A DNA stretch of 44,443 bases from a virus (IMGVR_UViG_3300028535_000182:1-44443); one strand, 5' to 3'; positions 2,013 to 43,454 are shown, counted from the stretch's first letter. Notes: generated from the letters alone by a model not told the origin. Program-made: numbers and translations.

Positions 2013-2816
2013 CTATTTTTCTCTTTTTTCCCAACCATCTTTAGACCACACAACACCTTCTCGCCATTTTTTGAGAATCTTATGACTAGTACCATAAAAT
2101 TTTATTGGGTCGGTACCATATGGGCAACGCCAATCGCTATGAATAACAGAATCAATGGCCCACTTGCGTTCTTGGCACCACCAACATTTACGGCATTCAT
2201 ATTCTGTAACTGACGTACAACTATTTGTAATTGTATTAAAACATGGAAACAGTCCTAGCATCCATTGTGCATCAACTAAAACTTTTTTATTAATATCTTT
2301 AAACGGGTGGCAAACACCAACACCATACAAAGGTTTTTTAGTTTTGGCTATCTGTCCCGGAGATCGATTATCGTCTTGGCGAACGTACCAACTGTCTGGT
2401 TCAACAAAAGTAAATGTATCGTCTGGATTAGCAGTTAGTCCCCACCAACATTTAAATTCATGTGCTGACCAGTTGTTTTCTTCTCTAATCTCTTTGTATA
2501 GTCCTTCGAGCAATGAGCCTTTTGTTGTTCCGATGTGTTCATGGCTAACTCGAAATCGTTGGTAAATGTTAATATCAGGAAATTCTCTCCTCATATGTTT
2601 AACAACTAAACTTCCACGATACAATGCACATGGGTCATATGGATAAGCACAGTGACCACAATATACAGGAATGTTCAAATCCTTTTCTCGTATCTGACAA
2701 CATAACATATACATTAGTGTTGCCGAATCCATTCCGCCACTAACTGAGATGTAGATACCTTTAGTACCTTCAGGAATGGTTGCTTCAAGTGTTCCGAATT
2801 TTGTTTTAACTTCCAT
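2013..2816 (-). CDS. QueC-like PP-loop ATPase
   Basis: The N-terminus carries the PP-loop of N-type ATP pyrophosphatases (SGGMDS, residues 26-31). The C-terminal third has four cysteines spaced C-x7-C-x2-C-x2-C (ending CRKCWWCQER), matching the zinc site of QueC, which makes the 7-deazaguanine precursor preQ0 using ATP. At 267 aa it is longer than a typical QueC and its middle is divergent. No queD, queE or folE is recognisable in the window, so the substrate may differ. Its start overlaps the upstream cupin gene by 11 bp, so the two are co-transcribed. Confidence 0.55.
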   Translation of the reverse strand: MEVKTKFGTLEATIPEGTKGIYISVSGGMDSATLMYMLCCQIREKDLNIPVYCGHCAYPYDPCALYRGSLVVKHMRREFPDINIYQRFRVSHEHIGTTKGSLLEGLYKEIREENNWSAHEFKCWWGLTANPDDTFTFVEPDSWYVRQDDNRSPGQIAKTKKPLYGVGVCHPFKDINKKVLVDAQWMLGLFPCFNTITNSCTSVTEYECRKCWWCQERKWAIDSVIHSDWRCPYGTDPIKFYGTSHKILKKWREGVVWSKDGWEKREK

Positions 2817-12321: not shown

Positions 12322-12564
12322 TTATTTGTTTACCTCGGCCGTAATAAATTTTATAGCATCACCAACAGTAGTAATTTTCTCAGCCTTAGAGTCGGGTATC
12401 TCAAAATTAAATTCTTCTTCAAATGCCATTACCAATTCTAATGTATCTAAACTATCAGCACCCAAGTCGTTAACAAAATTAGCATCTTCAGTTAACTTTG
12501 ATGTGTCAATACCCAAGTGGTCGGTTATTATTTTCTTTACTTTGTTTGAAACTTCTTCTGTCAT
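12322..12564 (-). CDS. acpP: Acyl carrier protein
   Basis: 80 aa, the normal ACP length. The phosphopantetheine attachment motif [18 protein letters not shown] has its serine at residue 38, and the four-helix layout and acidic helix II are intact. It would need a holo-ACP synthase, presumably the host's, and would carry acyl chains for fatty acid, lipid A or other acyl-transfer chemistry. No other fatty-acid gene is in the window. A TGTAAATA box lies 6 nt upstream. It may redirect host acyl metabolism or supply acyl groups for envelope changes. Confidence 0.92.
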
Positions 12565-13797: not shown

Positions 13798-14823
13798 CTA
13801 AAACGATACTGGAGATATTGAATATCGGCGTTTGAGTAAGGATATTATATAAGAACCATTGTCTATGTTTGCTATTTCTTTGCCCCACACATTTATCCAT
13901 TTATTTAATTTTTGTTTATCACTGTCTGGTAGATGTCTTATAGATAGTTTATCCGGGTGAACTAATGGTATTATATCCCAACCTAATCTATTTTTATTCT
14001 TAATGTTTAATTTTTTTTGCCAGTACCAATCACCAAGTTTGTCTATGTTACTCCAGCCTTTGTTATGTAAAGTAGTGTATATAAAAATATCGTAATTTGT
14101 ATTCTGAATAATATCGTCAACAAAGTTATCAATCTTATTCCAGTCAGCACCTTCACGCACAATAGAATTAAGATCTCCAAATGCATCAATACTAACTGAA
14201 ATTTCTACATTACGACATTGTTTAAATATTTTATGATCTTCTTCTGTTAATAAAAAATGACCATTAGTTGTATATTCTAGTTCAAGATTTTTTAGTGAGT
14301 CATTATCTATTGTTTGCAAAATTTTTCTATGACTGCTCGTCATGAAAGGCTCACCGCCCATGAATTTTATTTTTCTAATAGTACTAGGTAAGGTAGGTAA
14401 CTTTGGCAGTATTTTAATTCCTTCTTTAGAAGGCTTATCAGGATTACTTTTTGTCCATTTGGCACTACTAAACTCTCCTAAACACATTTCACAAGTTAAG
14501 TTGCATATGTTATTTGGATAAATTTCTATGTCTTGAAGTTCTACTTTTGCGTCTGGATACATAGAATTAAACCGCATACGCAAACTTTTTTTGCCGTGTT
14601 CTTCTTCTGAATAACATTTTGAACACGTAGCAATTTTCTCCCCACGATTAGTTTTTTCTCTTATTTCATTATACTCTTTACTGTGTAGTAAGCCATTTAG
14701 ATCCCCATCAAATTGTTTAATTGCTATATCAGATCTACAACAAGCATGAACTTTTCCATCAAAACGTATGTTGGTATGCTTGTAAAAAGCGGCACACGTG
14801 GTCTTGTTTGTAGATATTGTCAT
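13798..14823 (-). CDS. Radical SAM protein with N-terminal cysteine cluster
   Basis: The radical SAM [4Fe-4S] motif CNLTCEMC has cysteines at 107, 111 and 114, with the GGEP SAM-binding motif at about 156-159. Before it lies a second cysteine set (C10, C28, C29, C67, C70), as in the twitch/SPASM-like arrangement where an auxiliary cluster precedes the core. 341 aa. It is similar in design to the protein at 19133. Substrate unknown; peptide or sugar modification are both possible. A CTTAAATA box lies 5 nt upstream. Confidence 0.8.
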   Translation of the reverse strand: MTISTNKTTCAAFYKHTNIRFDGKVHACCRSDIAIKQFDGDLNGLLHSKEYNEIREKTNRGEKIATCSKCYSEEEHGKKSLRMRFNSMYPDAKVELQDIEIYPNNICNLTCEMCLGEFSSAKWTKSNPDKPSKEGIKILPKLPTLPSTIRKIKFMGGEPFMTSSHRKILQTIDNDSLKNLELEYTTNGHFLLTEEDHKIFKQCRNVEISVSIDAFGDLNSIVREGADWNKIDNFVDDIIQNTNYDIFIYTTLHNKGWSNIDKLGDWYWQKKLNIKNKNRLGWDIIPLVHPDKLSIRHLPDSDKQKLNKWINVWGKEIANIDNGSYIISLLKRRYSISPVSF

Positions 14824-14828
14824 ATCAA

Positions 14829-14836
14829 TATTTAAG
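14829..14836 (-). promoter_or_regulatory. Late-type promoter box CTTAAATA
   Basis: Lies 5 nt before the radical SAM ATG at 14823 on the minus strand. Confidence 0.5.
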
Positions 14837-14879
14837 TGATCCTCCCCCCTGGTCTACCATTTAATAATAACTACTATAC

Positions 14880-15176
14880 ATGAAGCGGTTTTTTACTTTA
14901 CAATTAAAAGGGTATAATGAAAATGTACCAATTGACTTTGCAAGAAGTCTTATAGTAGACGAATCTCCATTTGTAAAATATCTATCCGATAATAATGCTC
15001 TTGCTATACGCCATATGAAATCTAGAGCCACAATGGAGTTATATGGGGATCCAAGATATCTTATACTAGCAAAAATAAAATATGGTAAAGTATTGTCGGG
15101 TAAAATGAATTTTATTGAACTTTTTATTTCACATCAATTGCAAAGAAAAATGATTCAAAATTTTACAACCCCTTAA
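14880..15176 (+). CDS. Hypothetical protein, 98 aa
   Basis: Begins MKRFFTLQLKGYNENVPIDF and is mildly basic with no membrane segment or known motif. It is divergent from the radical SAM gene at 14823 and abuts the convergent gene with no gap. The AT-rich upstream ACTACTATAC resembles the promoter context at 11447. A role with the neighbouring radical SAM enzymes is possible but unproven. Confidence 0.45.
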   Translation: MKRFFTLQLKGYNENVPIDFARSLIVDESPFVKYLSDNNALAIRHMKSRATMELYGDPRYLILAKIKYGKVLSGKMNFIELFISHQLQRKMIQNFTTP

Positions 15177-15371
15177 TTATTTTTTATTAGGATTAGTTAG
15201 TAAATCTAAAGTTATTATTTTATGAATTGGAACAACTACGTTGTTTCTTTCTTGCTCTAATTTTTTACGGAATTTCCGGGCATCGGATTTTTTTCGCAGG
15301 TCTTCCTGCTTTTGTTGTTTGCGAAACGATCGCTCTCCACGTTGAGACTTATAAGTGTGGTGTATTCCCAT
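15177..15371 (-). CDS. Small basic hypothetical protein, 64 aa
   Basis: Highly charged helix (RGERSFRKQQKQEDLRKKSD, then ARKFRKKLEQERNN) followed by a hydrophobic tail (VVVPIHKIITLDLL). AGGAAA precedes the ATG. It lies 23 bp downstream of the radical SAM gene on the same strand. It could be its partner or a nucleic-acid-binding protein; it has no obvious RiPP leader. Confidence 0.45.
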   Translation of the reverse strand: MGIHHTYKSQRGERSFRKQQKQEDLRKKSDARKFRKKLEQERNNVVVPIHKIITLDLLTNPNKK

Positions 15372-15394
15372 AATTTTCCTAACATATCTATATG

Positions 15395-16375
15395 CTACTT
15401 ATCTTTAAATTTTGTGGCTAATTGATCAAAACCGTTTCTGCATACACTCTTTGAACACGTCCACGCCTCTTGTTGCCATGTTACATTTTGTTTAAGTACA
15501 TTACCAATCCGGCCACCTTGTCGGCACCAACCACGCCATACCCATCCTTTATTATCTACAATAAATTGGTCTACTCCTGCGTTACATTTATAACCTTCGA
15601 AGTTCCAATTCTTTGCTATTTTACCAGATTTTTTATCTAATGTTTCTCTAGTTAAGTCATGTCTTGCTCTGCTTTGCCCATCATATTCTAAATTTCCAAA
15701 ATACATAGTTTGTTCTGGATCCCAATTTTCTCCTCGTTCTTCAAAGTAATATTTTAATTGATATGTTTTGTATGGTAAGAATTGAAACCCTTTAGTAAAA
15801 TTAGAATATAATAATTTTAATTCAATTGGATATCCTTTGGCTTTAAATATTTCATATGTGTGTATAGCAGTATTCCATTGCTCATCATCATGTGTGCAGT
15901 GCATCATTATTCTAGTTTTTACTTTTCTATCATTATTATAATCTTTTTGAGACATTAAAAAGTCTACAACGTTTTCAATATGTTGTTGGTTCGCCCACTC
16001 TGTATGATAACTTATTTCAACTAAAGAAAAATAATGATAATGTTGTTTCCACCATTCCATTGATGCTGATCCATTTGTAACTAATCTGTTTTTTAATTGT
16101 CGATTACCCATACGTTGACACATAGCAAGTAGGCCCGGATTTAATGTAGGTTCTCCGCCAACAAATTCAAAAGCAGGAGCACGGTCTAACATTCGTAAAG
16201 AAGAAACAGTGTATTGAATAGCATTGGCAAGAATTTCTGCCTCTCCAAATTTAACTTTACTAGAATGCAGAATTGTTGGACAATACGAGCAGTCGTAGTT
16301 GCAGACATTACCAAATAGCCATTGGATACGAGTAGTCGTCATTTCTTGGTCGGTCATTATATCGTATTTAAACAT
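15395..16375 (-). CDS. Radical SAM protein with C-terminal cysteines
   Basis: CNYDCSYC (C25, C29, C32) starts the radical SAM barrel, with GGEPT at 73-77. A C-terminal group (YKCNAG, RGWCRQGG, WTCSKSVC) suggests an auxiliary iron-sulfur site of SPASM type. About 326 aa from the ATG at 16375; an upstream ATG at 16414 would run into the divergent gene's start. It differs from the twitch-type paralogues by having the extra cysteines after the core. Substrate unknown. Confidence 0.8.
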   Translation of the reverse strand: MFKYDIMTDQEMTTTRIQWLFGNVCNYDCSYCPTILHSSKVKFGEAEILANAIQYTVSSLRMLDRAPAFEFVGGEPTLNPGLLAMCQRMGNRQLKNRLVTNGSASMEWWKQHYHYFSLVEISYHTEWANQQHIENVVDFLMSQKDYNNDRKVKTRIMMHCTHDDEQWNTAIHTYEIFKAKGYPIELKLLYSNFTKGFQFLPYKTYQLKYYFEERGENWDPEQTMYFGNLEYDGQSRARHDLTRETLDKKSGKIAKNWNFEGYKCNAGVDQFIVDNKGWVWRGWCRQGGRIGNVLKQNVTWQQEAWTCSKSVCRNGFDQLATKFKDK

Positions 16376-16383
16376 TTTATTAT

Positions 16384-16391
16384 TGTAAATA
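16384..16391 (+). promoter_or_regulatory. Late-type promoter box TGTAAATA
   Basis: Lies 8 nt before the ATG at 16400 and inside the short divergent gap with the gene starting at 16375. Confidence 0.45.
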
Positions 16392-16399
16392 TAATTGAA

Positions 16400-18283
16400 A
16401 TGAACAAGCATCAAAACGTATTATTGCTTCACGTTCCAAATATAAGTTTAGTTGGTAGAAGGTTTTATAATGATATTAATGCCGGAGGTATAACATTTTC
16501 TGGCGGTCTTGAAGCAACAGGAAATATAGTTGATCAGTATGACTTAAATGCAAAATTGAACACCTATAGAAGAGAAGTTTCTGATTTTAGTATGTCAGAT
16601 AATGACTTAAAAACATTATTAGATATTGAATTGTTAAACGAGTATTTAGAAGGTCAAGTAGCAGTCAACGGTTCAGTTGCTTTTGAAAATAAAGAAAGAT
16701 ACATTAATATACAGTCAATAGGATTTGGAGATTTATATGATGATATGGTTGAGTTGGAGCATGATAGTAATTATTCCATATTACCATTTTTAACAAAGTA
16801 TTTGTTGAACGGAATTGATTTTAACAAATATGATTGGATTGGATTATCTGTTACTCGTAGAGGACAACAACTCTGGATGTTAAGACTTACATTACATTTT
16901 TCGTTATTACTAACATCGTACATTAAACAAAATTTTAATGGAAATATATACATTGGTGGTAATACTGTCTTAGATAAGTCAGATGCAAAACATTTAATAA
17001 AAATTTATAATACAATTAATGTAAAACATCAGCCAACAAGTTTTGTTCGAGGATATGCAGAGTCCGGAATGGAAAAGTTTATTAAATCTGAAAAACCGCT
17101 TCAGAAGTATTCTTTTAAAAATACAAACGAAATACAAGTACAACACGAATATCAATTTCAGCATATGAATTACCCAAAAGTAACTTTTGAAAATAATGAT
17201 GATGTATTAGCAGATCCAAAAGAATTTATAAATTCTAAAATGTTAGCAAAGTATACTAAATTAGAAACAGTTGAGCCTTTTCAACTATATCCATATAAGT
17301 TTAGTGAAGGCTGTCGATTTAAATGTTCGTTTTGTTCAATGGCAACAGTAGATGGATTTTCTGTACTTACACCAAAACAAACAGTTGATCATTTGGAAGA
17401 AATGGGAAATCATGGAGCCAAGCATTTTAGATTTTTTAATGATCAAATTAATTGGAAAAAAACATGGTTACTTGATTTTTGTAATGAGATTGTTAAAAGA
17501 AATTTAAAAATTACTTGGAACGATTCTGCAAATTTACGACTTGCCACTGCAGAAATATATAGTGCAATGAAAGAAGCAGGGTGTATTAAGTTGTGGTATG
17601 GTACAGAAACTATTGTAGACGAGACGTTAGCATTAATTAGAAAGATGATAACAAAAGATAAAATCATAAAAAATTTAGAACTTGCCCACGAGCACGAGAT
17701 TTATAATTGTTGTAATTTTATTTTTAATTTTCCATGGGAGACAGATGAACATTTCGCAGACTTGCTAAAATTTGAAAAGAAATATGTAGGAAATAAAGTA
17801 ATTAATGCATATCAAAATAATGCGTTCTGTGTGCAAAAAGGAGCCGAGTATCTAATGAACCCCGCAAAGTTTAAAATAGAAATACTTGAACAAGATGCTT
17901 TAGTTTGGGACCAGATTCATTATAATGAAGTTGGTGGTAAACAATGGGATGAAATAGTAAAAGATGCTTGGAGGAAGTCAGAAGTTCTTAATGAGCAAGG
18001 AAACCTTTGGTCGTTTGAAGTTAAAGAGATAAGAGCAAATGATTTTATTTTAACAGCATTACATAAAGCAGGTTACACATTTAAAGAAAAATTACAATTT
18101 TATGATGATGTTGATAAAACATTAACTCACGAAGAACTTATTTTGTGGGCAAAACGTATAGGAACAACATCATATCAGTTGCCAAGAAAAGTTCGTAAGC
18201 AAGTTGCAAGAATTGAAAAATGGAAAAAAATACATAAAACTTCTGCGATAGTAATAACACCAAAAGCAGATTACGAAAAATAA
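16400..18283 (+). CDS. Large B12-binding-type radical SAM enzyme
   Basis: About 627 aa. The first 230 residues resemble a cobalamin-binding Rossmann-like region (YDWIGLSVTRRG and NGNIYIGGNTV), without a clear DxHxxG motif. The radical SAM core follows with CRFKCSFC (C305, C309, C312) and downstream GTETI and FNFPWETDE as in B12-radical SAM proteins. The ATG at 16400 is chosen over one at 16322 because of the promoter box and the start of homology-like sequence. It overlaps the convergent PLP-type gene by 13 bp. Likely a methyltransferase or ring-forming enzyme; substrate unknown. Confidence 0.75.
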   Translation: MNKHQNVLLLHVPNISLVGRRFYNDINAGGITFSGGLEATGNIVDQYDLNAKLNTYRREVSDFSMSDNDLKTLLDIELLNEYLEGQVAVNGSVAFENKERYINIQSIGFGDLYDDMVELEHDSNYSILPFLTKYLLNGIDFNKYDWIGLSVTRRGQQLWMLRLTLHFSLLLTSYIKQNFNGNIYIGGNTVLDKSDAKHLIKIYNTINVKHQPTSFVRGYAESGMEKFIKSEKPLQKYSFKNTNEIQVQHEYQFQHMNYPKVTFENNDDVLADPKEFINSKMLAKYTKLETVEPFQLYPYKFSEGCRFKCSFCSMATVDGFSVLTPKQTVDHLEEMGNHGAKHFRFFNDQINWKKTWLLDFCNEIVKRNLKITWNDSANLRLATAEIYSAMKEAGCIKLWYGTETIVDETLALIRKMITKDKIIKNLELAHEHEIYNCCNFIFNFPWETDEHFADLLKFEKKYVGNKVINAYQNNAFCVQKGAEYLMNPAKFKIEILEQDALVWDQIHYNEVGGKQWDEIVKDAWRKSEVLNEQGNLWSFEVKEIRANDFILTALHKAGYTFKEKLQFYDDVDKTLTHEELILWAKRIGTTSYQLPRKVRKQVARIEKWKKIHKTSAIVITPKADYEK

Positions 18284-19146
18284 ATTTTTGCAAGATAAAA
18301 AAGAGCATCGCGAGTAGGCACTGCCCGAATAATTTTACCATTATCGTCTGTTGCAAAGGCAACGTGTATTGCAGGTGAAGGTTTTAGATTAGGACATACT
18401 TTTATTATTGTATCATAAAGTTTTCCATATTTCTTCCAAAAGAAATCAGTACCAAATTTATTCATTAGTTCGATACCAGAAATTATATTTGTTATTGCAA
18501 AAAAATCATTGTTGTTCATAAATTCAACAGGTCCATTAATTGGTTGTCTTGCATATCGTATACCACATCGTTGTTCACTTATACCAAATGCTTTGCTTAA
18601 ACTAAAACTTATTGTTTGTATTGCTGGGTGATCAACGTTGAAATTAATTCCTTTACTGCAAGGATACCATGCGGCATCCAAGTGAACAGGAATATTTTCT
18701 TGCAAACATTTTTCTAAAATTTGAGACATTTCAGGATGTATGCTATAAGTGTGACAACAAAAAGGAGCAGACATTAATAATACATCTCCATTAATTAATG
18801 TATCTATTGTACGTTTTTTTATATTTGGATATATTGTTTCATGATAAAAAAAGTCGCCTTCGAATATAACAACACAGTTTGGATTTGTTATGTAAATGTC
18901 ATTAATGCTTTGTGTTACACCAAATATAACTTTTCTATCTGGAAATGTATCAAGACCAGTAAATGAAATTAATTCATGATTGTGTATCCATTGATCGAAT
19001 ATTTTTTTGAAGTCGTCAATTAAATTATTACGCCATTGGTCACTATAATTAATCATACTTAGAAATTGAATAATTTCTTTGTCCTTCATTGGACGTTTGC
19101 GTTTAGCATTTCTATCGATTAAAGAATTTAATTTATTTGTATCCAT
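18271..19146 (-). CDS. PLP-dependent aminotransferase-fold enzyme
   Basis: 291 aa with the fold-type I signatures: an aspartate for the pyridine nitrogen in PVHLDAAWYPC (D157) and the Schiff-base lysine in SFSLSKAFGISE (K185), followed by an Arg-rich strand (QRCGIRYARQ). It is shorter than the usual 350-450 aa, lacking part of the small domain. It overlaps the upstream radical SAM gene by 14 bp, so they are coupled. It could aminate a sugar or amino acid precursor made by the island. Confidence 0.65.
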   Translation of the reverse strand: MDTNKLNSLIDRNAKRKRPMKDKEIIQFLSMINYSDQWRNNLIDDFKKIFDQWIHNHELISFTGLDTFPDRKVIFGVTQSINDIYITNPNCVVIFEGDFFYHETIYPNIKKRTIDTLINGDVLLMSAPFCCHTYSIHPEMSQILEKCLQENIPVHLDAAWYPCSKGINFNVDHPAIQTISFSLSKAFGISEQRCGIRYARQPINGPVEFMNNNDFFAITNIISGIELMNKFGTDFFWKKYGKLYDTIIKVCPNLKPSPAIHVAFATDDNGKIIRAVPTRDALFYLAKIYFS

Positions 19147-20533
19147 TTTGTTCCATCATTAGTTTAATATGTGGTGCATGATCTTGTAATCTTTTTTTAC
19201 GTATTCCGTTAAGCCAATTAATATAATCACAAGCAAGTTTAATCATGCTTTGAGATGGCTCAGATTTATGATGAACATGGGTGTCCCCTTCATATAAACT
19301 ATCTTTAATATTATCAAAATCTGGTTTGTTGATGCCTAGTGTATTTTCCTGATTATAATCAGAAACAGGAATTTCATGATTTGAAAAACTATCAAAATGA
19401 ACCAATTCCTGATAACCATCTAGATAATTTTCTGGTACAAACCATTTCCCTACTTCTGCGTATACACTAGTTGTCCACTTTTTTTTAAATGTAGGCAAAG
19501 TCATATAAGCATTCATCCATGGTTCCATTACTACATTAAATGACATAAGATACTTTGTTGCTTTAGATTCAAATCTAGAAAAATAAGAAACAATATCATT
19601 TAGATGCATTATGTTATAAAGGCTTACTGTTACATTAATGTCTAACATTTTTATACTTGGCATTTTCATTAGTTGTATAATATTTTCATTTACACGTTTC
19701 CAACTAAATCCTCTTATCCATTCGTATATTGGTCCTATTCCGTCTATACTAAGGTTAAGTTCTAAGTTTGAGAACTTGCTTAATATACTTCTCATTTTGA
19801 GACTAATGGTTGTTGCATTGGTAACAATTATTAATTTCACGTCTGGATTTAATTTACTAATACGATCTAAAAAAGCAATACAACGTTTGTCATATAAAGG
19901 TTCACCACCTTTAATCATTATAGATTCGTAGGTTTGTATATTGTCAATAATTGAATCAATAAAACGTTGATTTAAAATATAAGATTGAAAAGGCTCGTGC
20001 GGTGTACCCCACGGTCTACCATATATAGGAGATATTCTATCTTTTAATGTTTGTGGCATTAGTTTCTCTTGTTGCATCCATCCTGAACTGTGAGTACGAT
20101 TACACATAGCACAGGCCAGATTGCAGGTATTACTAAAGTTTAATTCAATTGCTTTTAGTTTTGGTTTATACTTTTGGCAAAATTCATCAGTTAATTGTTG
20201 ACGTTTAATTGGTGCTGGAGTATTAATAAAATATCTTTCAATTTTTCTCTGGCGTTGACTTCTTATTCCGCTTTCTTCTTTTTTATAACATACTTCGCAA
20301 GACTCGTTTCTTTCTCCCTTGCTCATTTTTTCTCTTATTGAGGCTAGATGTTTACTGTCAAAAAGTTGCGGAGCAGTCTGGGTAGAAGTTTTCATATCAG
20401 CAATAGTATGTCCTGGGTGTGTATTCCAGCAAGGACAAGGTTGTGCTTTTCCTGTTGGGTCCACAGTTAGTCCATCAAAAGGATAAAAACACCAAAAATC
20501 TTTCTTAGTTTGTTTTTTAGTTTGCATTTTCAT
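19133..20533 (-). CDS. Radical SAM protein with N-terminal cysteine cluster, long form
   Basis: CNLACAMC (C137, C141, C144) and GGEPL define the radical SAM core. An N-terminal set (C15, C33, C35, C79, C82) mirrors the protein at 13798, so these are paralogues. A C-terminal extension of about 100 residues has no cysteine pattern. 466 aa. It is coupled to the downstream PLP-type gene. Substrate unknown. Confidence 0.8.
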   Translation of the reverse strand: MKMQTKKQTKKDFWCFYPFDGLTVDPTGKAQPCPCWNTHPGHTIADMKTSTQTAPQLFDSKHLASIREKMSKGERNESCEVCYKKEESGIRSQRQRKIERYFINTPAPIKRQQLTDEFCQKYKPKLKAIELNFSNTCNLACAMCNRTHSSGWMQQEKLMPQTLKDRISPIYGRPWGTPHEPFQSYILNQRFIDSIIDNIQTYESIMIKGGEPLYDKRCIAFLDRISKLNPDVKLIIVTNATTISLKMRSILSKFSNLELNLSIDGIGPIYEWIRGFSWKRVNENIIQLMKMPSIKMLDINVTVSLYNIMHLNDIVSYFSRFESKATKYLMSFNVVMEPWMNAYMTLPTFKKKWTTSVYAEVGKWFVPENYLDGYQELVHFDSFSNHEIPVSDYNQENTLGINKPDFDNIKDSLYEGDTHVHHKSEPSQSMIKLACDYINWLNGIRKKRLQDHAPHIKLMMEQNGYK

Positions 20534-20535
20534 AT

Positions 20536-20553
20536 CTTAAATACATATTTAAC
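20536..20553. promoter_or_regulatory. Divergent late-type promoter pair
   Basis: CTTAAATA on the plus strand (20536-20543) and GTTAAATA on the minus strand (20546-20553) lie back to back between the genes starting at 20533 and 20568. Gaps to the starts are 12 nt (minus) and 24 nt (plus). Confidence 0.4.
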
Positions 20554-20567
20554 AGGCGTTAAATGAC

Positions 20568-21341
20568 ATGAAACTTATATTTGATCACACACTAGGAAAG
20601 CAACAAGACACAGATTTAGTGTTTTGTAAACCACTTGCGGAGGTACCACACGACGAAGAAAATGAAGCATTAGAAACTGGTTGGTTGGCTTTAGATGAAC
20701 CGATGAACGGGGAAGAATTATTTTACCAATCTCGTTCTACTCGTATAAATTTAGAAGGGTGGGAGCCACGATTTAAGGAGTGGAAAGTAGAAGATGAAGA
20801 CTTACGTTTAAAAGAAATTGAAGCAAACGAAATGGTAAAGTTATTAGGTTTACCTAAAATTTATAAAGACTATATGAAAAGAAAAGGATTTAAACAAGAG
20901 TATAATCCATTTACACATATGTCTAGAAGAGATGCTTTTATATTGTTTTATACAAAAACCATGACTAATATTGTTGGATTTACTAAAATCAAAAAATATA
21001 TGTACCAGGAAGATGCATTTGCAGACGACGACGGTGACTTTGATGAGGCGATGTGGGCAGGCTATGAATCAGTAATTCATTGTAATAAACTTCCAATATC
21101 TCAAATCACATTAGATATGGAAATAAAATGGGCGAAAGATCACGATGCTCAATATTATTATATGGGTTCAGGTTATGAAAAATCATCAATATATAAATCC
21201 CATTGGAGTGGTTTCGAATGGTGGACAGGAAGTACGTGGTCTAGATCTAAGAAGTTATATCAAAAATTATGTAGGAGTGATTCTCGAGTTACTACTTTAC
21301 AGGATGTCGCCAAGATCCCGTCACTTCTTTTTCGTACGTAG
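20568..21341 (+). CDS. GNAT-fold protein resembling arginyl/leucyl-tRNA-protein transferases
   Basis: 257 aa. The second half has the feel of Ate1/Bpt C-terminal domains: YKDYMKRKGF, then a strand pattern ending in WAKDHDAQYYYMGSGYEKS and YKSHWSGFEWW, like the Y-x-L-G-Y-W and M-x-Y-K motifs of those enzymes. They move an amino acid from aminoacyl-tRNA to a protein N-terminus. The N-terminal cysteine cluster of Ate1 is absent. It could instead be a small-molecule acyltransferase. Its 3' end overlaps the convergent gene by 50 bp. Confidence 0.4.
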   Translation: MKLIFDHTLGKQQDTDLVFCKPLAEVPHDEENEALETGWLALDEPMNGEELFYQSRSTRINLEGWEPRFKEWKVEDEDLRLKEIEANEMVKLLGLPKIYKDYMKRKGFKQEYNPFTHMSRRDAFILFYTKTMTNIVGFTKIKKYMYQEDAFADDDGDFDEAMWAGYESVIHCNKLPISQITLDMEIKWAKDHDAQYYYMGSGYEKSSIYKSHWSGFEWWTGSTWSRSKKLYQKLCRSDSRVTTLQDVAKIPSLLFRT

Positions 21342-21792
21342 AATCCCAATTTTTATAGTAGTCAGTATCACGTAACATTTTTTCGAACTTTGCAATTTTA
21401 GTTCTTCGTTGTACAAAAAACAAAATGTACTTGCCTTGGTTTAGCACAACATTTTTAACTTTTTCTACTAATTTAGGATGATCTTCCATTATTAGTATAT
21501 CTCTTTTTTTATAGAGATCGTTTAGTTCTTCAGCAAGAGTTACTGTTTCTTCAACAGTCCAACGAGTTGGTTGAGCAATTAATACAAGAACATCTTTTTT
21601 TACAAAGTCAAATGCTTCAATATACCGCCAAAGTATACCGTCAGGTTCGTAGTCTGGTACCTCAATAAATTCTACTTTACCATCTAATCTTGCTTGTTTG
21701 GCATACGGGCATGGTGGTAAATCTGCAAATACTGGATGTGGTACTTCAACAAATTCCTTTACCCATTTTATTACTTCTTCGGTCGCATTCAT
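21292..21792 (-). CDS. Hypothetical protein with CPYA motif, 166 aa
   Basis: Begins with a helix, then DLPPCPYAKQARLDGKVEF near residue 24. The rest reads as an alpha/beta domain (DVLVLIAQPTRWTVEETVTL, then QGKYILFFVQRR) with no catalytic motif I recognise. The single cysteine in PCPYA may be functional. It is divergent from the ABM gene and shares its promoter region. Not recognised with confidence. Confidence 0.5.
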   Translation of the reverse strand: MNATEEVIKWVKEFVEVPHPVFADLPPCPYAKQARLDGKVEFIEVPDYEPDGILWRYIEAFDFVKKDVLVLIAQPTRWTVEETVTLAEELNDLYKKRDILIMEDHPKLVEKVKNVVLNQGKYILFFVQRRTKIAKFEKMLRDTDYYKNWDSTYEKEVTGSWRHPVK

Positions 21793-21798
21793 TAAATA

Positions 21799-21806
21799 TA
21801 TTTAAA
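21799..21806 (-). promoter_or_regulatory. Late-type promoter box TTTAAATA
   Basis: Lies 6 nt before the ATG at 21792 on the minus strand. A plus-strand TTAAATA in the same stretch faces the gene at 21817. Confidence 0.45.
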
Positions 21807-21816
21807 GGATACAACA

Positions 21817-22107
21817 GTGGCTTATAAAGTTTTTTTCATTGCTAGAGTTAAAGATTATAACGAAGAATATAGAATAATGAGTGAGAAAGTATATACTCAT
21901 GCTCAAACATTAAAAGGTTTTATTAGTCTAGAAGAAGAGCACATGAAAGATGAACATGGTATAACAGAAATAACAGTTTCCACGTGGAAAACTAAAGAAG
22001 ACGTTATGGCATGGCGAATTGATCCAATACATATGGAGGCTAAAGCACGAGCAAAAGAATGGTATTATTGGATTAAGGGAGTTCACATAGAAACAAAAGA
22101 TGCCTAG
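21817..22107 (+). CDS. ABM-domain (antibiotic biosynthesis monooxygenase-like) protein
   Basis: 96 aa with a GTG start behind AAAGGA. The ferredoxin-like ABM pattern is visible: a first strand (YKVFFIARVKDY), GFISLEEEHM, then ITEITVSTWKTKEDVMAW and an aromatic C-terminal helix (AKEWYYWIKGV). Members act as cofactor-free oxygenases, heme-degrading enzymes or ligand binders. It overlaps the amidinotransferase by 8 bp, so the products probably work together. Confidence 0.55.
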   Translation: MAYKVFFIARVKDYNEEYRIMSEKVYTHAQTLKGFISLEEEHMKDEHGITEITVSTWKTKEDVMAWRIDPIHMEAKARAKEWYYWIKGVHIETKDA

Positions 22108-23308
22108 AATATCAAAAGTAAACAGTTGGGACGAGTTCTCGCCCCTGAAAACTATGATCTTAGGTAGTGTATTTGATACAAATTTCTTTGACGATATTAA
22201 AAATCAAAAAATTCAATATACATTAAAAAAAGTATTTAAAGAAACACAAGAAGACCTCGAAGCATTTAAAACAACAATGGAATCGCATGGTATAAAAGTA
22301 CACCAAGCAGAGCCAAAGGAGATGGGATATAAAGATTCTATAATGGATTATATTGATGATAAAGGTAGAATAGGTTGGACAGGTGGAACCGAAATAACAA
22401 GAACAAATCTTGTGCCAGCACCACCTTTACAGGTACGTGATGAAACTATTGTAATGGGCAACGAGGTATTTGTAACAGAAGGTGCTTTCACAGTTGAGAT
22501 GTTAAGATCCTATTATCGTGAATGGTTTGGCGATGAAAATTGTAACTTTGGTGTTTTAGATGGACGTATTACAGGACGTAGAACAAATCAAAGTATTAAC
22601 AGTTGGCTTAAACGTTTTGGTAAAGAAAAAGGATTTGGAGATAAAACAAATGTAACACAACTTACTGTTGAAGAGTTAGAAAGAATAAACATGAAGCATC
22701 GAGTTCCCGGTTTTTGTGCTCCAAATATAACACGCCTAGGAAAACAATGTCTTGTAGATGTTTGGCAAACACCAGACATTAAAGATATATTAGAAAAAGA
22801 ATATCCTATGTTTGATTACAAAGAAATTAGTTTAGGTGGACACAATGATAGCATATTTACTGTGCTCAAACCAGGAGTAGTTGTTGCCGCAGAATGGACC
22901 AAGGAGAATAATTTACAATCTGTATTTCCAGGATGGGAGATAGAATATTTTAAAGATCCCAATTGGAACTCAGTTGAAAAATGGTTAAGTCTTAAAAATA
23001 TAAACAAAGGTAAATGGTGGGTGCCAGGAGAGGAAGATAATACAGAATTTACACACTTTGTTGAAACGTATATGGGAGAATTAACTGGAGAAGTAGAAGA
23101 AACTGTGTTTGATGTAAATTGTTTAGTGCTAGATGACAAATATATAGTTGTTAATAGTGACAATTCGGATTTGTATAAATTTTTGCGTAAGCATAATTTA
23201 GAACCAATATTTTGTCCTTTTAGAAATAGATTTTTCTTTGATGGTGGTTGGCATTGTTTAACATTAGATATAGAACGGTCGGGCGTTCAAAAAGATTATG
23301 GACTATAA
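22100..23308 (+). CDS. Amidinotransferase (glycine amidinotransferase-like)
   Basis: 402 aa, the normal size for the family, which moves an amidine group from arginine to an amine (glycine, inosamine and others). The nucleophile is C386 in GGWHCLTLD near the C-terminus, and the general base is H248 in SLGGHNDS. By eye the third catalytic position, Asp in a D-x-I-R-x-G motif, reads Asn209 here (APNITRLG), which could weaken or change activity. It is co-transcribed with the ABM gene and lies 3 bp from purF, so nitrogen-rich metabolites may be made. Confidence 0.75.
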   Translation: MPRISKVNSWDEFSPLKTMILGSVFDTNFFDDIKNQKIQYTLKKVFKETQEDLEAFKTTMESHGIKVHQAEPKEMGYKDSIMDYIDDKGRIGWTGGTEITRTNLVPAPPLQVRDETIVMGNEVFVTEGAFTVEMLRSYYREWFGDENCNFGVLDGRITGRRTNQSINSWLKRFGKEKGFGDKTNVTQLTVEELERINMKHRVPGFCAPNITRLGKQCLVDVWQTPDIKDILEKEYPMFDYKEISLGGHNDSIFTVLKPGVVVAAEWTKENNLQSVFPGWEIEYFKDPNWNSVEKWLSLKNINKGKWWVPGEEDNTEFTHFVETYMGELTGEVEETVFDVNCLVLDDKYIVVNSDNSDLYKFLRKHNLEPIFCPFRNRFFFDGGWHCLTLDIERSGVQKDYGL

Positions 23309-23311
23309 AAT

Positions 23312-24643
23312 ATGTGTGGAATAGTAGGAATATATAACGTTCCTGAAGCCTCTAAAATTGCGGCCTTAGGAATTCATGCCTTGCAACATAGAGGACAAGA
23401 AGGTGCGGGAATTATTTCATACAATAAACAATTTCATACTCATGGCGGGTATGGACGTGTCGATCATATTTTTGGTAGTGACAAAGTTATAAAAAATCTT
23501 CCTGGTGACATAGCAATTGGACACGTTAGGTATAGCACCACTGGAGGCACTGGACAAAATAATGTTCAACCTTTATTTTATAATTTAGACTTTGGTGGCT
23601 TTGCTATTGCTCATAATGGTGACTTTACTGATTCTGCATATTGGAGAGATAAACTATCCAAAGAAGGTGCAATATTTCAAACGTCAACTGATACAGAAAT
23701 TATTCCACATTTAATTGCTCGAACAAAAGGTATTGATCCTGTGGATCGCTTACTTACAATATTGAATAAAGTCAAAGGTGCATTTAGTATAGTAGTATTA
23801 ATGGATAATAAATTAGTTGTTGCTCGAGACCCACACGGCTTTCGACCTTTAGTTATAGGTCAATACGAAGATGGATACGCAATAGCATCTGAAAGTTGTT
23901 CACTTGATTTAATTGGTGCAACAAATATTAAAGATGTTGAACCTGGTACAGTAATTATATTCGACAAGGAAAAAAAGGAAACGTTTTATTTAGATAAAAA
24001 AGTTACAAAACATTTTTGCATATTTGAACATATCTATTTCTCAAGACCTGATTCTGTTATTGATAATCAATTAGTATACGATGTTCGTAAAAGAATAGGT
24101 GAAGAATTAGCAAAAGAAACTTATGTTGAATCTGATATGGTTGTTCCTGTACCTGATTCTGGTATGGTATCTGCACTTGGATATGCTAAACAATCTAAAA
24201 TACCATTTGAATTAGGACTTACACGAAGTCATTATAGAGGAAGAACATTCATTGAACCTACACAAAAAATACGAGACTTAGGTGTAAAATTAAAACATAG
24301 TGCTATGAGATTGTTCAAAGATAAAATAGTTACCGTCATTGATGATTCTATTGTACGAGGAACTACATCTAAAAAAATTATAAAAATGATACGAAAAGCA
24401 GGTGCTAAAAAAATACATATGCGTATATCATCTCCTCCTGTAACTGGATCATGCCATTATGGTATTGATACTCCAAACAGAAAAGAACTTATAGCCGGAG
24501 AGAGTAACGTAAAAGAAATCAAAGAATTTATTGATGCTGACTCATTAGAATACATTTCAATTGAAGGGTTGCATAAAGCCATGAAAAGTAAAGGCTATTG
24601 CGATGCTTGTTTCACAGGTAACTATCCTGTTAAAAAACAGTAA
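23312..24643 (+). CDS. purF: Amidophosphoribosyltransferase
   Basis: Commits PRPP to purine synthesis by making phosphoribosylamine with glutamine as nitrogen donor. Cys2 is the glutaminase nucleophile (MCGIVGIYN), and the PRPP loop VTVIDDSIVRGTTS is at 340-353. Cysteines at 236, 381, 430 and 433 match the [4Fe-4S] ligands of the Bacillus-type enzyme. 443 aa, apparently complete, although the propeptide is missing. No other pur gene is present, so it may boost the host pathway at its control point. Alternatively its phosphoribosylamine could feed the neighbouring enzymes. Confidence 0.93.
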   Translation: MCGIVGIYNVPEASKIAALGIHALQHRGQEGAGIISYNKQFHTHGGYGRVDHIFGSDKVIKNLPGDIAIGHVRYSTTGGTGQNNVQPLFYNLDFGGFAIAHNGDFTDSAYWRDKLSKEGAIFQTSTDTEIIPHLIARTKGIDPVDRLLTILNKVKGAFSIVVLMDNKLVVARDPHGFRPLVIGQYEDGYAIASESCSLDLIGATNIKDVEPGTVIIFDKEKKETFYLDKKVTKHFCIFEHIYFSRPDSVIDNQLVYDVRKRIGEELAKETYVESDMVVPVPDSGMVSALGYAKQSKIPFELGLTRSHYRGRTFIEPTQKIRDLGVKLKHSAMRLFKDKIVTVIDDSIVRGTTSKKIIKMIRKAGAKKIHMRISSPPVTGSCHYGIDTPNRKELIAGESNVKEIKEFIDADSLEYISIEGLHKAMKSKGYCDACFTGNYPVKKQ

Positions 24644-24647
24644 TCGG

Positions 24648-24675
24648 TTGCAATATTACAAAGATATAATATAAT
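24648..24675 (+). promoter_or_regulatory. Sigma70-like promoter before the synthetase-like gene
   Basis: TTGCAA (24648-24653), a 16-nt spacer and TATAAT (24670-24675). A CATAAATA late-like box (24678-24685) follows directly. Transcripts from either would pass the hairpin at 24696 before the next gene. Confidence 0.5.
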
Positions 24676-24695
24676 AGCATAAATACAGAAAAGAG

Positions 24696-24722
24696 TTTTG
24701 CCTTTAATGGCAAAATTTTTTT
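24696..24722 (+). terminator. Rho-independent terminator or leader attenuator
   Basis: TTTTGCC and GGCAAAA form a 7-bp stem around TTTAAT, followed by seven T. It terminates purF transcripts, but it also lies between the 24648 promoter and the next gene, so it could act as an attenuator. Confidence 0.7.
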
Positions 24723-24753
24723 GGTTAAATTTTTTTTGACAGGAGGAAAGAAA

Positions 24754-25611
24754 ATGACGCAACTAATAAATCCTAGACAGTTTACTAACATCACGGGCCT
24801 ATTGAGGTCCTTTTTTTTGGCTAAAGGCTTTCTAGAAGTACACACCCAAAATAGATTAAGCATACTAGCGGCGTGTGAAGATCCAACAACAGTATCAACG
24901 TACAACTACTCAGGGCAGGTATGGCCTTTACCACAAACGGGCCAAATGTGGCTCGAGTACGAATTACTTAATGACCTTGCTTCGCCAGGGTTCTTTTGTG
25001 TTTCCACGTCCTATAGGCAAGAACCAAATCCTATAGACGGTAGACACGATTTAATATTTCCAATGTTTGAATTCGAGATGCCAGGCACAGTACGTGATTT
25101 GGAAGTCTTAGAACGAGAATTAGTTCAGCATTTAGGATTTTGTAACTATAATGAAGTAGTAGACAAGAACTACATTGATTGGTGTAAAGAGTATAATGTA
25201 GACGAACTAACGCATATTCATGAAGGCTTAATGTGTAATAACAATCAAGTATGCATGATTAAAAACTTTCCAAATAATACAAGTCCATTTTGGAATATGA
25301 AACAAAACGGTGATGGCACAGCATCTAAGATAGATGTTATTATAGGTGGAATGGAAACGATAGGTTCCGCAGAACGTTCAAGTGATCCGGAGGAAATGCG
25401 TAAACAATTTCATACTATAAGCAATGGTATGTACGCAGAATTATTATACGGAAGGTTCGGCAAGGAACGTGTAGAACAAGAACTTGAAGAATTTTTAAGT
25501 TATAATTTTATTCCTAGAGTTGGCGGAGGAATTGGTTTAACTAGATTAATAAGTGCAGTTAAGGGGTCAGCAAAACATTTTACGCAAAAAACTGCTAACG
25601 CATTTATATAA
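24754..25611 (+). CDS. Class II aminoacyl-tRNA synthetase-like catalytic domain (Asp/Asn type)
   Basis: 285 aa from an ATG with a strong AGGAGG site; a TTG at 24721 is inside the terminator and is rejected. Motif 2 appears as STSYRQEPNPIDGRHDLIFP and motif 3 as GGGIGLTRLIS, as in the AspRS/AsnRS subclass. An N-terminal anticodon-binding domain is missing. Stand-alone domains of this type include asparagine synthetase A-like enzymes and EpmA-type modifiers, so it may make asparagine or charge a non-tRNA substrate. It faces the helicase gene convergently. Confidence 0.65.
   Translation: MTQLINPRQFTNITGLLRSFFLAKGFLEVHTQNRLSILAACEDPTTVSTYNYSGQVWPLPQTGQMWLEYELLNDLASPGFFCVSTSYRQEPNPIDGRHDLIFPMFEFEMPGTVRDLEVLERELVQHLGFCNYNEVVDKNYIDWCKEYNVDELTHIHEGLMCNNNQVCMIKNFPNNTSPFWNMKQNGDGTASKIDVIIGGMETIGSAERSSDPEEMRKQFHTISNGMYAELLYGRFGKERVEQELEEFLSYNFIPRVGGGIGLTRLISAVKGSAKHFTQKTANAFI
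24795..24818 (+). terminator. Terminator-like hairpin inside the synthetase-like coding region
   Basis: GGGCC (24795-24799) pairs with GGTCC (24806-24810) around TATTGA and is followed by eight T. It is 41 bp inside the gene. With the hairpin at 24696 it makes two terminator-like signals in about 120 bp. The T8 run also is a possible slippage site. Confidence 0.45.
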
Positions 25612-35276: not shown

Positions 35277-35690
35277 ATGAAGAGAAAACGCAGACATATA
35301 AAATTAAAAAGAAAATTACAGAAAGTATTAGGACGTCCTAGTGCCGAAAATACCTATTATACTACAATGCATGGTATAAACTGGTGGTATGAGACCTATA
35401 ATTATTCATTATTTGACAATAAATTACCAAAATTTGATTATATAAAAATTAAAAGAATTCATGGTGCAATAGGACAAGTAGTAAACTATGATTACGAAAC
35501 AAAAGAAACAAAGTATCATTTAGAAATGTTGCCGAAGTATGCAACTAAAAGAGTATTTTTAGAAACACTTGTTCACGAAATGATACATTTATATCAAATG
35601 AAAGTTAAAGAAGATACCGGCAATCATAATAAACTTTTTTATAGTTTTAAACCTAAACTTCAGTTTTTGGGACTAGAACTTTCTCGATAA
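35277..35690 (+). CDS. SprT-like zinc metalloprotease
   Basis: 137 aa with the zincin motif LVHEMIHLYQ (HEMIH at 100-104) and a downstream H117 in GNHNKLFY as a third ligand. A basic N-terminus (MKRKRRHIKLKRKLQK) may bind DNA. Spartan/SprT proteins cut DNA-protein crosslinks; this one lacks the C-terminal zinc ribbon. It is divergent from the replication operon and overlaps the convergent gene by 38 bp. Confidence 0.7.
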   Translation: MKRKRRHIKLKRKLQKVLGRPSAENTYYTTMHGINWWYETYNYSLFDNKLPKFDYIKIKRIHGAIGQVVNYDYETKETKYHLEMLPKYATKRVFLETLVHEMIHLYQMKVKEDTGNHNKLFYSFKPKLQFLGLELSR

Positions 35691-36405
35691 AATTAGCATA
35701 AGACATTATTTTATGATTTTTAAATGGGATAACCTCAAGGTAGTCTGGCGGATTGTCATGTACAATAGTAAATTTACAGTAAGGTCTTTTTTTGCAAATA
35801 CTTTTATATTGTTGAAGCCATGGTTCAAAAATATCATCCCCGTGTCGAGGACCGTAATTATCAGTGTCTTGATAAATGTTGTTTAATTCATTCTTACCAA
35901 ATTCTCTAAAATCAAATCCTATTAGATATACATTTTTATGACCATGCATACAAGCAGTCCAAAATGCGGCAGAACCCGATATCCAGTGAGGATTATTAGG
36001 GATAAGATGTAATTTCTTTTTTGATCTATTCATTTCTAATGCCGGAGCATAACAAAAACATTTGTCAAAAACTTTATCAGCAACAATTTTTTCTGACATA
36101 TACCGGTCAACACTAAACAAATAATCTGGTATAAAATCTCTGTACAATGCATTACAACCATAGGTTTGTCCAGTATTTTTTAATAAAGATAAATCAAATT
36201 TATTTTTTCTTGATGGTCCGTTTCCTATAATATAGGCATTACCTTTTGGTTTTGCTTTTACTTTATCTTCAATGTATTCTCGTTCTTCAATTTTTTTTCC
36301 TTGTCGTATAATCATCTTTGCAATAATTTCTTCACCAACGTATGGTTTCCACTCTATTGGTGAATTTGGATCTGGTTTCCGGCCTAGGTTTTTAATTACT
36401 TCCAT
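35653..36405 (-). CDS. DUF115/MAF-like glycosyltransferase-related protein
   Basis: 250 aa. AYIIGNGPSRKNKFDLSLL is a Rossmann-type GNGPS nucleotide site, followed by TYGCNALYRDF and DYLFSVDRYM; NPHWISGSAAFWTACMHGH and VYLIGFDFREF complete the pattern. This matches the MAF/DUF115-like group near sialyl- and motility-accessory transferases. It probably moves or senses a sugar nucleotide in the glycan module. The N-terminal 50 residues are an extra segment. Confidence 0.5.
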   Translation of the reverse strand: MEVIKNLGRKPDPNSPIEWKPYVGEEIIAKMIIRQGKKIEEREYIEDKVKAKPKGNAYIIGNGPSRKNKFDLSLLKNTGQTYGCNALYRDFIPDYLFSVDRYMSEKIVADKVFDKCFCYAPALEMNRSKKKLHLIPNNPHWISGSAAFWTACMHGHKNVYLIGFDFREFGKNELNNIYQDTDNYGPRHGDDIFEPWLQQYKSICKKRPYCKFTIVHDNPPDYLEVIPFKNHKIMSYANFIEKVLVPKTEV

Positions 36406-36802
36406 TATTTTCCTTAAATCTTAACAAGGCCCAATGAGCAATAACGCCACTAGTGTCTAGTTTATATTTGTGTTCTTTATCAATATCTCTTAAAATTTTA
36501 TTGGCTTTTGCTAACCCAAGTCCGGCTTTTATTGGAACTTGTAATGCTAACATTTTTTTCTCTTTCTTCTTTTTTGCCGCTTGTACTCTATGCCAACCAT
36601 CACATAAAATATAATATCCTGTTTTTTTAATAGGTGATACAAGTATTGGTTTAAATTCATTACTGGCTTGTTTTACAAGTTTTTTAATCCAATAACGTTT
36701 TTCTTTATTTAATGGACGTTCAGCACCTAATCCAAGATCGGCCAAAGTTATAAGTTTGTCTATGTCAATTTTAATTGATCTAAGTCTTGTATTATTCTCC
36801 AT
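36392..36802 (-). CDS. ParB/sulfiredoxin-like domain protein, 136 aa
   Basis: The ParB-N/Srx pattern is visible: an N-terminal IDIDKLITLAD strand, PILVSPIKKTGYYILCDGWH (turn before the G-x-H-R loop) and HRVQAAKKKKEKKMLALQVP. These folds bind CTP or ATP, or act as nucleases or kinases. A role in nucleic-acid handling or as a serine kinase is possible. It overlaps the next gene by 14 bp. Confidence 0.55.
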   Translation of the reverse strand: MENNTRLRSIKIDIDKLITLADLGLGAERPLNKEKRYWIKKLVKQASNEFKPILVSPIKKTGYYILCDGWHRVQAAKKKKEKKMLALQVPIKAGLGLAKANKILRDIDKEHKYKLDTSGVIAHWALLRFKENNGSN

Positions 36803-36810
36803 TTTTCTCC

Positions 36811-37689
36811 TTATCGTTTAATATACTTTTCTAATAACCTTTCTCTTATTCTTTTCCATGGCTTACCTTCTCTAAATTCTTCGACAAACCATTCAGTATA
36901 TGCTAAACGATTTGCCCAGTTTTGTCTAGCCGGCATGGCCGGATGCATTATATCACTAAGATCTTTATTACCAACGTCATAGCATAAACTTTTTTCAGAT
37001 ACAAAAACAGGAATGCCTGCAAATACAGCCTCCATGGCAGGATTAGACGAATGGTTTACAACTGCCCAGGTAGATTGTAAAATTTTTTTAAAGTCAGTAT
37101 CATCATAAGTTTGATAATCACGTTTTGGTAAATTTACTCTAACGTGTTTATATTTGTGTTCAGGAAACCCATGTATAATATTTCTAGGATGTGGTCTGAT
37201 AATAATTGGTTTGTCTGTGTATCTACGTATTTCATCGATGCATAATTTAAAATATGCCTTCATGTTTGGTTGTTCTCGCCACTGGTGGCTATTGGTATGT
37301 TGTCCACATATTACAATTACATTGCCGGTTTGTTTCCATGGTTTGAAATGATGATTGAATAATGGCCAACGTTTATCATCAAACGTATCATTGGCAAAAT
37401 CTGCTTCTCTATTAATTCCGTTTATTGCTATCTTAAAAGAAGAATTTCTTCTAATACCACCAACTTCTAAAACAACAACCGGCCTTCCTGTGCCTCGAAA
37501 TTGTTCCCAAACACGTCTGTTAGGTTCCATTCGTCCTTGCCATAATACTGACCAAACAATTGCAACGTCACAGTTTTTATCTTCACCAATATAAACTTTT
37601 TCGTGTTTAGATCTAAGATGTTCAATCAATGCCTGGAATACTGGTTTACCATTCATACTAGAATTTTCGGGATATATTGCAATTCTCAT
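36811..37689 (-). CDS. GT-B-like glycosyltransferase (capsule-type), 292 aa
   Basis: The C-terminal half has IIIRPHPRNIIHGF and VNHSSNPAMEAVFAGIPVFV, as in KpsC-like and related capsule glycosyltransferases, where the HSS/A-x-x-E segment binds the sugar nucleotide. A paralogous layout appears at 38627, 40659 and the gene at the right edge. It would build a phage-encoded surface glycan or decorate virion or host polysaccharide. It overlaps the next gene by one base. Confidence 0.65.
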   Translation of the reverse strand: MRIAIYPENSSMNGKPVFQALIEHLRSKHEKVYIGEDKNCDVAIVWSVLWQGRMEPNRRVWEQFRGTGRPVVVLEVGGIRRNSSFKIAINGINREADFANDTFDDKRWPLFNHHFKPWKQTGNVIVICGQHTNSHQWREQPNMKAYFKLCIDEIRRYTDKPIIIRPHPRNIIHGFPEHKYKHVRVNLPKRDYQTYDDTDFKKILQSTWAVVNHSSNPAMEAVFAGIPVFVSEKSLCYDVGNKDLSDIMHPAMPARQNWANRLAYTEWFVEEFREGKPWKRIRERLLEKYIKR

Positions 37690-38609: not shown

Positions 38610-38620
38610 AATTATATACG

Positions 38621-38628
38621 TATTTAAT
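38621..38628 (-). promoter_or_regulatory. Late-type promoter box ATTAAATA in a divergent gap
   Basis: Lies 11 nt before the ATG at 38609 on the minus strand and overlaps the ATG of the plus-strand gene at 38627, leaving an intergenic gap of only 17 bp. Confidence 0.4.
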
Positions 38629-40629: not shown

Positions 40630-40638
40630 ATTAATAAT

Positions 40639-40648
40639 TATTTAAATA
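40639..40648. promoter_or_regulatory. Palindromic bidirectional late box TATTTAAATA
   Basis: A perfect palindrome that reads TTTAAATA on both strands. The ATG of the minus gene (40629) is 9 nt away and that of the plus gene (40659) 10 nt away, so one element could fire in both directions. Confidence 0.5.
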
Positions 40649-40658
40649 AAATAGAACT

Positions 40659-42112: not shown

Positions 42113-42114
42113 TT

Positions 42115-43432: not shown

Positions 43433-43434
43433 AG

Positions 43435-43452
43435 AAATATTTATAAATATTT
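43435..43452. promoter_or_regulatory. Perfectly symmetric bidirectional T4-type late promoter
   Basis: An 18-bp palindrome contains the exact T4 late element TATAAATA on both strands (plus 43442-43449, minus 43438-43445). The start codons are exactly 5 nt from each element: 43455 on plus and 43432 on minus. One gp55-type sigma site could therefore drive both genes. Confidence 0.6.
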
Positions 43453-43454
43453 TC

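Follow-up and report, generated by a model that had tools for sequence, protein, structure and literature searches.

A stretch of 44,443 bases of viral DNA (IMG/VR virus record IMGVR_UViG_3300028535_000182:1-44443; hereafter the window) carries, between positions 13798 and 25611, what an initial annotation took to be a single, undescribed biosynthetic island with four radical SAM (rSAM) enzymes, which raised the question of whether these genes belong to one pathway and, if so, what that pathway might make. The record is probably a fragment of the genome of an aquatic phage. Jumbo myophages such as PA5oct and Atu_ph07 have the DnaB helicases most similar to its own (45-52% identity), and it also encodes a virion-structural-like protein and a UvsW-type helicase; its source is therefore a large tailed phage. 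A near-DNA search of the island against phage records returned no match. Elsewhere in the window we noted a free-standing acyl carrier protein gene (12322-12564, minus strand) near a tRNA-Thr gene, and a run of glycosyltransferase-like and FkbM methyltransferase genes at 35653-44072 (GT61 at 39586) in which several proteins had no family match.

The presence of four rSAM proteins was borne out, as exactly four rSAM matches to Pfam were found in the 44-kb record, all within 13798-20533 (6.7 kb). Two of these, rSAM1 (13798-14823, minus strand, 341 aa, with a Radical_SAM match and a SPASM match at its N-terminus) and rSAM3 (19133-20533, minus strand, 466 aa), are N-terminal-twitch rSAM proteins by the NCBIfam model NF033640, against which they scored 197.6 and 241.7 bits, above its curated cut-off of 170 bits. 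The N-terminal cysteine clusters attributed to two of the rSAM proteins were likewise seen, with C10, C28, C67 and C70 and the CX3CX2C motif invariant among eight aligned proteins. Distant twitch homologues of rSAM1 were present in related clusters, and syntenic orthologs of rSAM3 were found in the most closely related phage contig (L003) and in L028-L030. The third protein, rSAM2 (15395-16342, minus strand, 315 aa, with an alternative ORF start upstream at 16414), has no N-terminal twitch part, scored 23.5 bits against NF033640, under the cut-off, and carries the C-terminal auxiliary cysteines that had been predicted for one of the four, which are visible in its sequence. Its Radical_SAM score of 29.0 bits was just below the 29.5 cut-off but rose above cut-off in a separate Pfam search of the record; its nearest named families were viperin-like and QueE-like, at scores far below their cut-offs, and its ortholog in L003 was 70% identical. 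The fourth, a large accessory protein (16400-18283, plus strand, 627 aa; Radical_SAM 60.5 bits) with 53% identical relatives in contigs L001 and L002, had been labelled a B12-type enzyme. We abandoned this label, as the Pfam search gave no B12-binding match and matches to solved structures spanned the rSAM core only. Identity with the antiphage protein viperin was rejected for the rSAM proteins, which matched pVip models over the common core only and far below the viperin equivalog cut-off.

Matches to NF033640, some of them partial and covering the core only, numbered 25 in 184 kb, 21 in 72 kb and 18 in 103 kb in related phage records, and none was above cut-off in 14 well-known genomes. The 25 matches, the highest count met, lay at about 18-151 kb of G008 (the record behind locus L038), two of them in one 916-aa open frame. 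Sequence reading also placed a class III aminotransferase-like gene (L001, 3-977) near the large rSAM homologue of that contig, and an AMP-dependent acyl-ligase-like gene (L002, 3-1379) on a contig that also holds the module and the large rSAM protein.

The enzymes accompanying the rSAM proteins were assigned with differing firmness. The proposed PLP-fold enzyme (18271-19146, minus strand, 291 aa, fold-type-I-like) is supported by its motifs, of which DxAW was invariant in 21 relatives and SLSK had a nearly invariant lysine, and by a weak transaminase match, but it had no strong family match, and its profile gave no convincing relative among solved structures. Its relatives were found by an alignment-based scan of viral contigs, whereas a single-sequence scan of the same kind returned no matches. 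The GNAT/tRNA-transferase-like protein (20568-21341, plus strand, 257 aa) matched ATE1 by profile (E 1.7e-5), and its predicted model (pLDDT 86.9) adopted an ATE1-like fold, with ATE1 and lysyl-phosphatidylglycerol (LPG) synthase as the top fold matches and L/F transferase further down. By this modelled fold it is a GNAT of the aminoacyl-tRNA-dependent type, as are ATE1 and L/F transferase, although identity in the fold matches was about 10%; tRNA-dependent transfer is predicted.

Between the GNAT gene and the amidinotransferase gene lie two small genes. The first encodes o21292 (21292-21792, minus strand, 166 aa), a conserved protein with a well-folded predicted model (pLDDT 94.6) that had no strong known-fold match in a fold search and no convincing relative when its profile was compared with solved structures. 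The o21292 and GNAT genes are convergent, and their tail-to-tail overlap of ~50 bases recurs across diverse phage contigs. A homologue of o21292 adjoins structural genes in HMO-2011, a cultured SAR116 phage (L099, 3986-4513), where no amidinotransferase or rSAM matches were found in the 9.5 kb read. The second small gene (21817-22107, plus strand, 96 aa) had been read as an ABM-domain protein; its character as a small, dimeric alpha/beta-barrel-like protein stands, but its Dabb, DUF3291 and heme-oxygenase matches were weak. Its family also occurs in L065, L038 and L102, and in most relatives its place is taken by a DUF6614 protein, a family of which we found no mention in the literature searched. 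The gene overlaps reported for the island were present on the same strand at 19133/19146 (14 bases, between rSAM3 and the start of the PLP gene) and 22100/22107, and between convergent genes at 18271/18283 and 21292/21341.

The amidinotransferase-family enzyme (22100-23308, plus strand, 402 aa) was placed by a family profile, supported by a 24-member alignment, that matched the solved structures of AGAT (E 1.3e-24), SxtG, HsvA and StrB1 in two stretches spanning the catalytic parts. The window enzyme shares with these proteins the catalytic cysteine and histidine (Cys386 and His248) and the HxD and RD motifs (Asp250 and Arg113-Asp114). It differs from AGAT at the position of Asp254, the third triad residue, which in the profile alignment corresponds to Cys206, and ordinary amidinotransferase activity is therefore not certain. 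An FC[SA]P motif in the Cys206 region is common to close phage relatives, and the enzyme of Campylobacter phage CP220 appears to retain the Asp.

Not all of the proposed island belongs together. Linkage was compared in some 60 loci, taken from viral-contig scans and additional records, and among these PurF and the stand-alone synthetase domain (23312-25611) each occurred next to the other genes in the window only; we rejected them as members and regard them as neighbours. The class II synthetase catalytic domain itself (24754-25611) was confirmed (PF00152), and shares about 60% identity with the protein called 'tRNA ligase' in cyanophages P-SSM2 and P-SSM7, where its genomic context differs from that in the window. 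Conversely, a QueC-like PP-loop ATPase gene (2013-2816, minus strand; PF06508 at 22.5 bits against a cut-off of 22) with a C-terminal CxKCWWCxERKWAI-like motif probably belongs to the module, beyond the range originally given. What stands of that range is 13798-23308, whose genes are a real, conserved multi-enzyme module.

This conclusion rests on linkage in other genomes. L003 preserves the order rSAM2-PLP-rSAM3-GNAT-o21292-small protein-amidinotransferase, its small protein being a DUF6614 one, and the set lies near DnaB. We further counted partners within 10 kb of the amidinotransferase gene in 19 phage contigs anchored on it, which are interrelated to varying degrees, so that the counts are not independent. 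The o21292 gene was present in all 19, rSAM genes in 18 (up to nine of them) and the GNAT in 17; 16 contigs had DUF6614 or a similar barrel protein and 14 the PLP enzyme. Less frequent were a methyltransferase (13 contigs), the QueC-like PP-loop protein (11) and a glycosyltransferase-like gene (seven). The sole contig with no rSAM gene (L004) is truncated at that point. Twelve contigs that had the GNAT but no amidinotransferase gene held seven rSAM genes in total, and in amidinotransferase-free contigs the DUF6614-GNAT-o21292 trio was often beside T4-like head genes, by our reading. The linkage exceeds chance and is conserved both in other phages and in bacteria. The members were thus not scattered and unlinked in relatives, and their conserved linkage in many phages and in Bdellovibrionota supports the initial view that the genes form a single biosynthetic set and are not part of usual phage metabolism. 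That the locus is instead a hot spot collecting unrelated auxiliary genes, with no common pathway, would account for the large rSAM protein, PurF and synthetase, which are variable or unique to the window, and for HMO-2011, where o21292 stands with no other module genes nearby. We regard this as the most doubtful of the readings considered: the same families recur together in diverse phages and in bacteria, which already weakens it, and an amidinotransferase is encoded elsewhere in all four genomes of >80 kb in which the trio has none next to it.

If the genes act together, a modified peptide or protein might be their product. The frames at 14880 and 15177 had been suggested as places to look for a precursor peptide, but o14880 was evenly conserved, with no leader/core split, and o15177 was confined to the window among the loci compared. 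Intergenic bases number 232 across the window island, 21 across the L003 block and 84 across L014, which leaves almost no room in any of the three for a precursor peptide gene beside the rSAM genes; this scarcity, together with the uniform conservation of o14880, makes an ordinary RiPP unlikely. A broader form of the proposal has the rSAM enzymes introducing cross-links or oxidations, an Asp hydroxylase adding beta-hydroxyls, the GNAT adding a residue and the amidinotransferase forming a guanidino side chain, the target being either a structural protein of the phage or a peptide encoded elsewhere. Peptides or proteins are the usual substrates of ATE1-type GNATs, Asp/Asn beta-hydroxylases and most SPASM/twitch rSAM enzymes, and modification of such a target is therefore a strong rival. 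The match of the GNAT to ATE1 and L/F transferase agrees with it, as do the SPASM/twitch architecture of the rSAM proteins, the Asp_Arg_Hydrox matches in linked genes (with Asp/Asn beta-hydroxylases linked in L003, L038 and L063) and the location of the trio by T4-like head genes in L044 and elsewhere. Clusters of this kind do not, however, typically contain PLP and amidinotransferase families, and, with the crowding of the genes and the pattern of o14880 also against it, we consider this explanation possible but somewhat unlikely.

Another possibility is that QueC-like and QueE/viperin-like proteins act in a 7-deazaguanine or related pathway for the hypermodification of phage DNA or nucleotides. 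The linkage of the QueC-like gene in 11 of the 19 loci would fit this, and so would the weak similarity of rSAM2 to QueE and viperin, the occurrence of FolE and QueD in three large rSAM-rich phages, and a QueD-like protein encoded by CP220. FolE and QueD were nevertheless missing from the window and from nine of the 12 records searched, two of >130 kb included (records that may be fragments), and lay distant from the cluster where present; no base hydroxymethylase was identified, and we know of no pathway of this kind that includes runs of twitch rSAM enzymes. We judge DNA modification to be very unlikely.

Members of the set were also found in some predatory bacteria. A Bdellovibrionia chromosome (L063), recovered in an amidinotransferase search with one genome per species, carries the PLP enzyme, the amidinotransferase and Asp/Asn hydroxylases, and together with a neighbouring stretch (L079; both lie at about 741-780 kb of the contig) it has over 15 closely spaced rSAM genes, of which many are twitch-type. 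The PLP family was present in 13 of 291 Bdellovibrionota genomes, and a twitch rSAM gene lay within about 1.5 kb of the PLP gene in eight of the 12 Bdellovibrionota loci read. On the PLP tree the label must switch between phage and bacterium at least twice, and phages L037 and L038 group with L063 (97/97), indicating that the genes have moved between phages and bacteria. In two Bdellovibrionota loci (L085, L086) GT2 glycosyltransferase genes adjoin the PLP gene, and in G047 the cluster is close to a surface-polysaccharide locus that we read, from translations, as encoding nonulosonate and O-antigen enzymes.

Phage clusters rich in rSAM genes have been on record since 2010, and to this extent the description of the island as undescribed has to be given up. 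An exchangeable cluster in which five rSAM genes accompany a putative glycine amidinotransferase was reported in that year for Campylobacter phages CP220 and CPt10, in which the number of rSAM genes was called highly unusual (PMC2853527); 12 rSAM genes followed in 2017 in a T4-like marine genome (PMC5332604), and rSAM cassettes in host-recognition clusters of pelagimyophages in 2020 (PMC7029224), and the accessible parts of all three reports give no function. The window resembles the CP220/CPt10 cassette, in which several rSAM genes and an amidinotransferase stand close together and which is exchangeable and belongs to a T4-related phage (PMC2853527, accessible part), and falls within that type of cassette when it is defined by several rSAM genes plus an amidinotransferase. 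The CP220 amidinotransferase matched the profile of the window family (E 6.7e-21), as did some CP220 rSAM genes those of the window. In the CP220 set, unlike the window, none of the PLP, o21292, GNAT and small-barrel families was matched, and its clustered rSAM proteins, by reading, are without the N-terminal twitch part. The phages of the other two reports are likewise rSAM-rich, T4-like and aquatic, but differ from the window in that the accessible parts describe no partner set or linked enzymes (PMC7029224, PMC5332604). The partner set is new in the literature searched, which omits most subscription journals; neither its recurrence nor its sharing with Bdellovibrionota was found there.

Because of the gene neighbourhoods, we favor the modification of a surface or virion glycan as the role of the pathway, to which we give a probability of roughly 0.4. 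Proximity to glycan genes was observed repeatedly: KdsA, KdsB, a glycosyltransferase and 2OG oxygenases are neighbours of the amidinotransferase in cyanophage S-SCSM2R, two glycosyltransferase-like genes immediately follow the rSAM/amidinotransferase set of CP220, the Bdellovibrionota GT2 genes and the G047 locus lie near clusters, and the window encodes a GT61 protein and two FkbM methyltransferases. Aminocyclitol pathways, moreover, make use of BtrN, a twitch enzyme, and of StrB1-type amidinotransferases and PLP aminotransferases. The host-recognition clusters that contain the pelagimyophage rSAM cassettes also contain tail fibres and glycosyltransferases (PMC7029224, accessible part). Besides the usual peptide or protein substrates discussed above, it counts against glycan modification that the glycosyltransferase genes of the window are >10 kb from the module, that no sugar-nucleotide enzyme was found inside the island, that in L044 the GNAT-o21292 pair is beside T4-like head genes with no adjacent glycan genes, and that the amidinotransferase is without the usual third triad residue.

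For a glycan pathway, our inferred scheme, which covers the substrate, the sequence of reactions and the role at the surface, is as follows. The twitch rSAM enzymes would carry out radical oxidations, deoxygenations or epimerisations of sugar or aminocyclitol-like intermediates, the PLP enzyme would aminate ketones produced by these steps, the amidinotransferase would transfer an amidine from arginine to the resulting amine, and the ATE1-like GNAT would use aminoacyl-tRNA to add an aminoacyl group. The unit might then be attached and capped by glycosyltransferases and methyltransferases encoded elsewhere in the same genomes, and the product, displayed on a host envelope glycan or on virion fibres, may alter phage recognition or superinfection. 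It is conceivable, although unlikely, that large aquatic phages and Bdellovibrionota share a class of biosynthesis in which runs of up to ~25 twitch rSAM enzymes work alongside PLP enzymes, amidinotransferases and aminoacyl-tRNA-dependent transferases, and that the guanidino- or aminoacyl-bearing conjugate so made controls how phage and host recognise each other.

A recurrent partner set is now defined, consisting of the amidinotransferase, o21292, the ATE1-like GNAT, DUF6614 or a similar barrel protein, the PLP enzyme and the QueC-like PP-loop protein; parts of it are common to phages and Bdellovibrionota, and testable substrates are indicated. If the surface role is true, these phages would carry a large kit of radical chemistry that alters recognition, and, whatever its product, the module is an untapped source of new enzymes.
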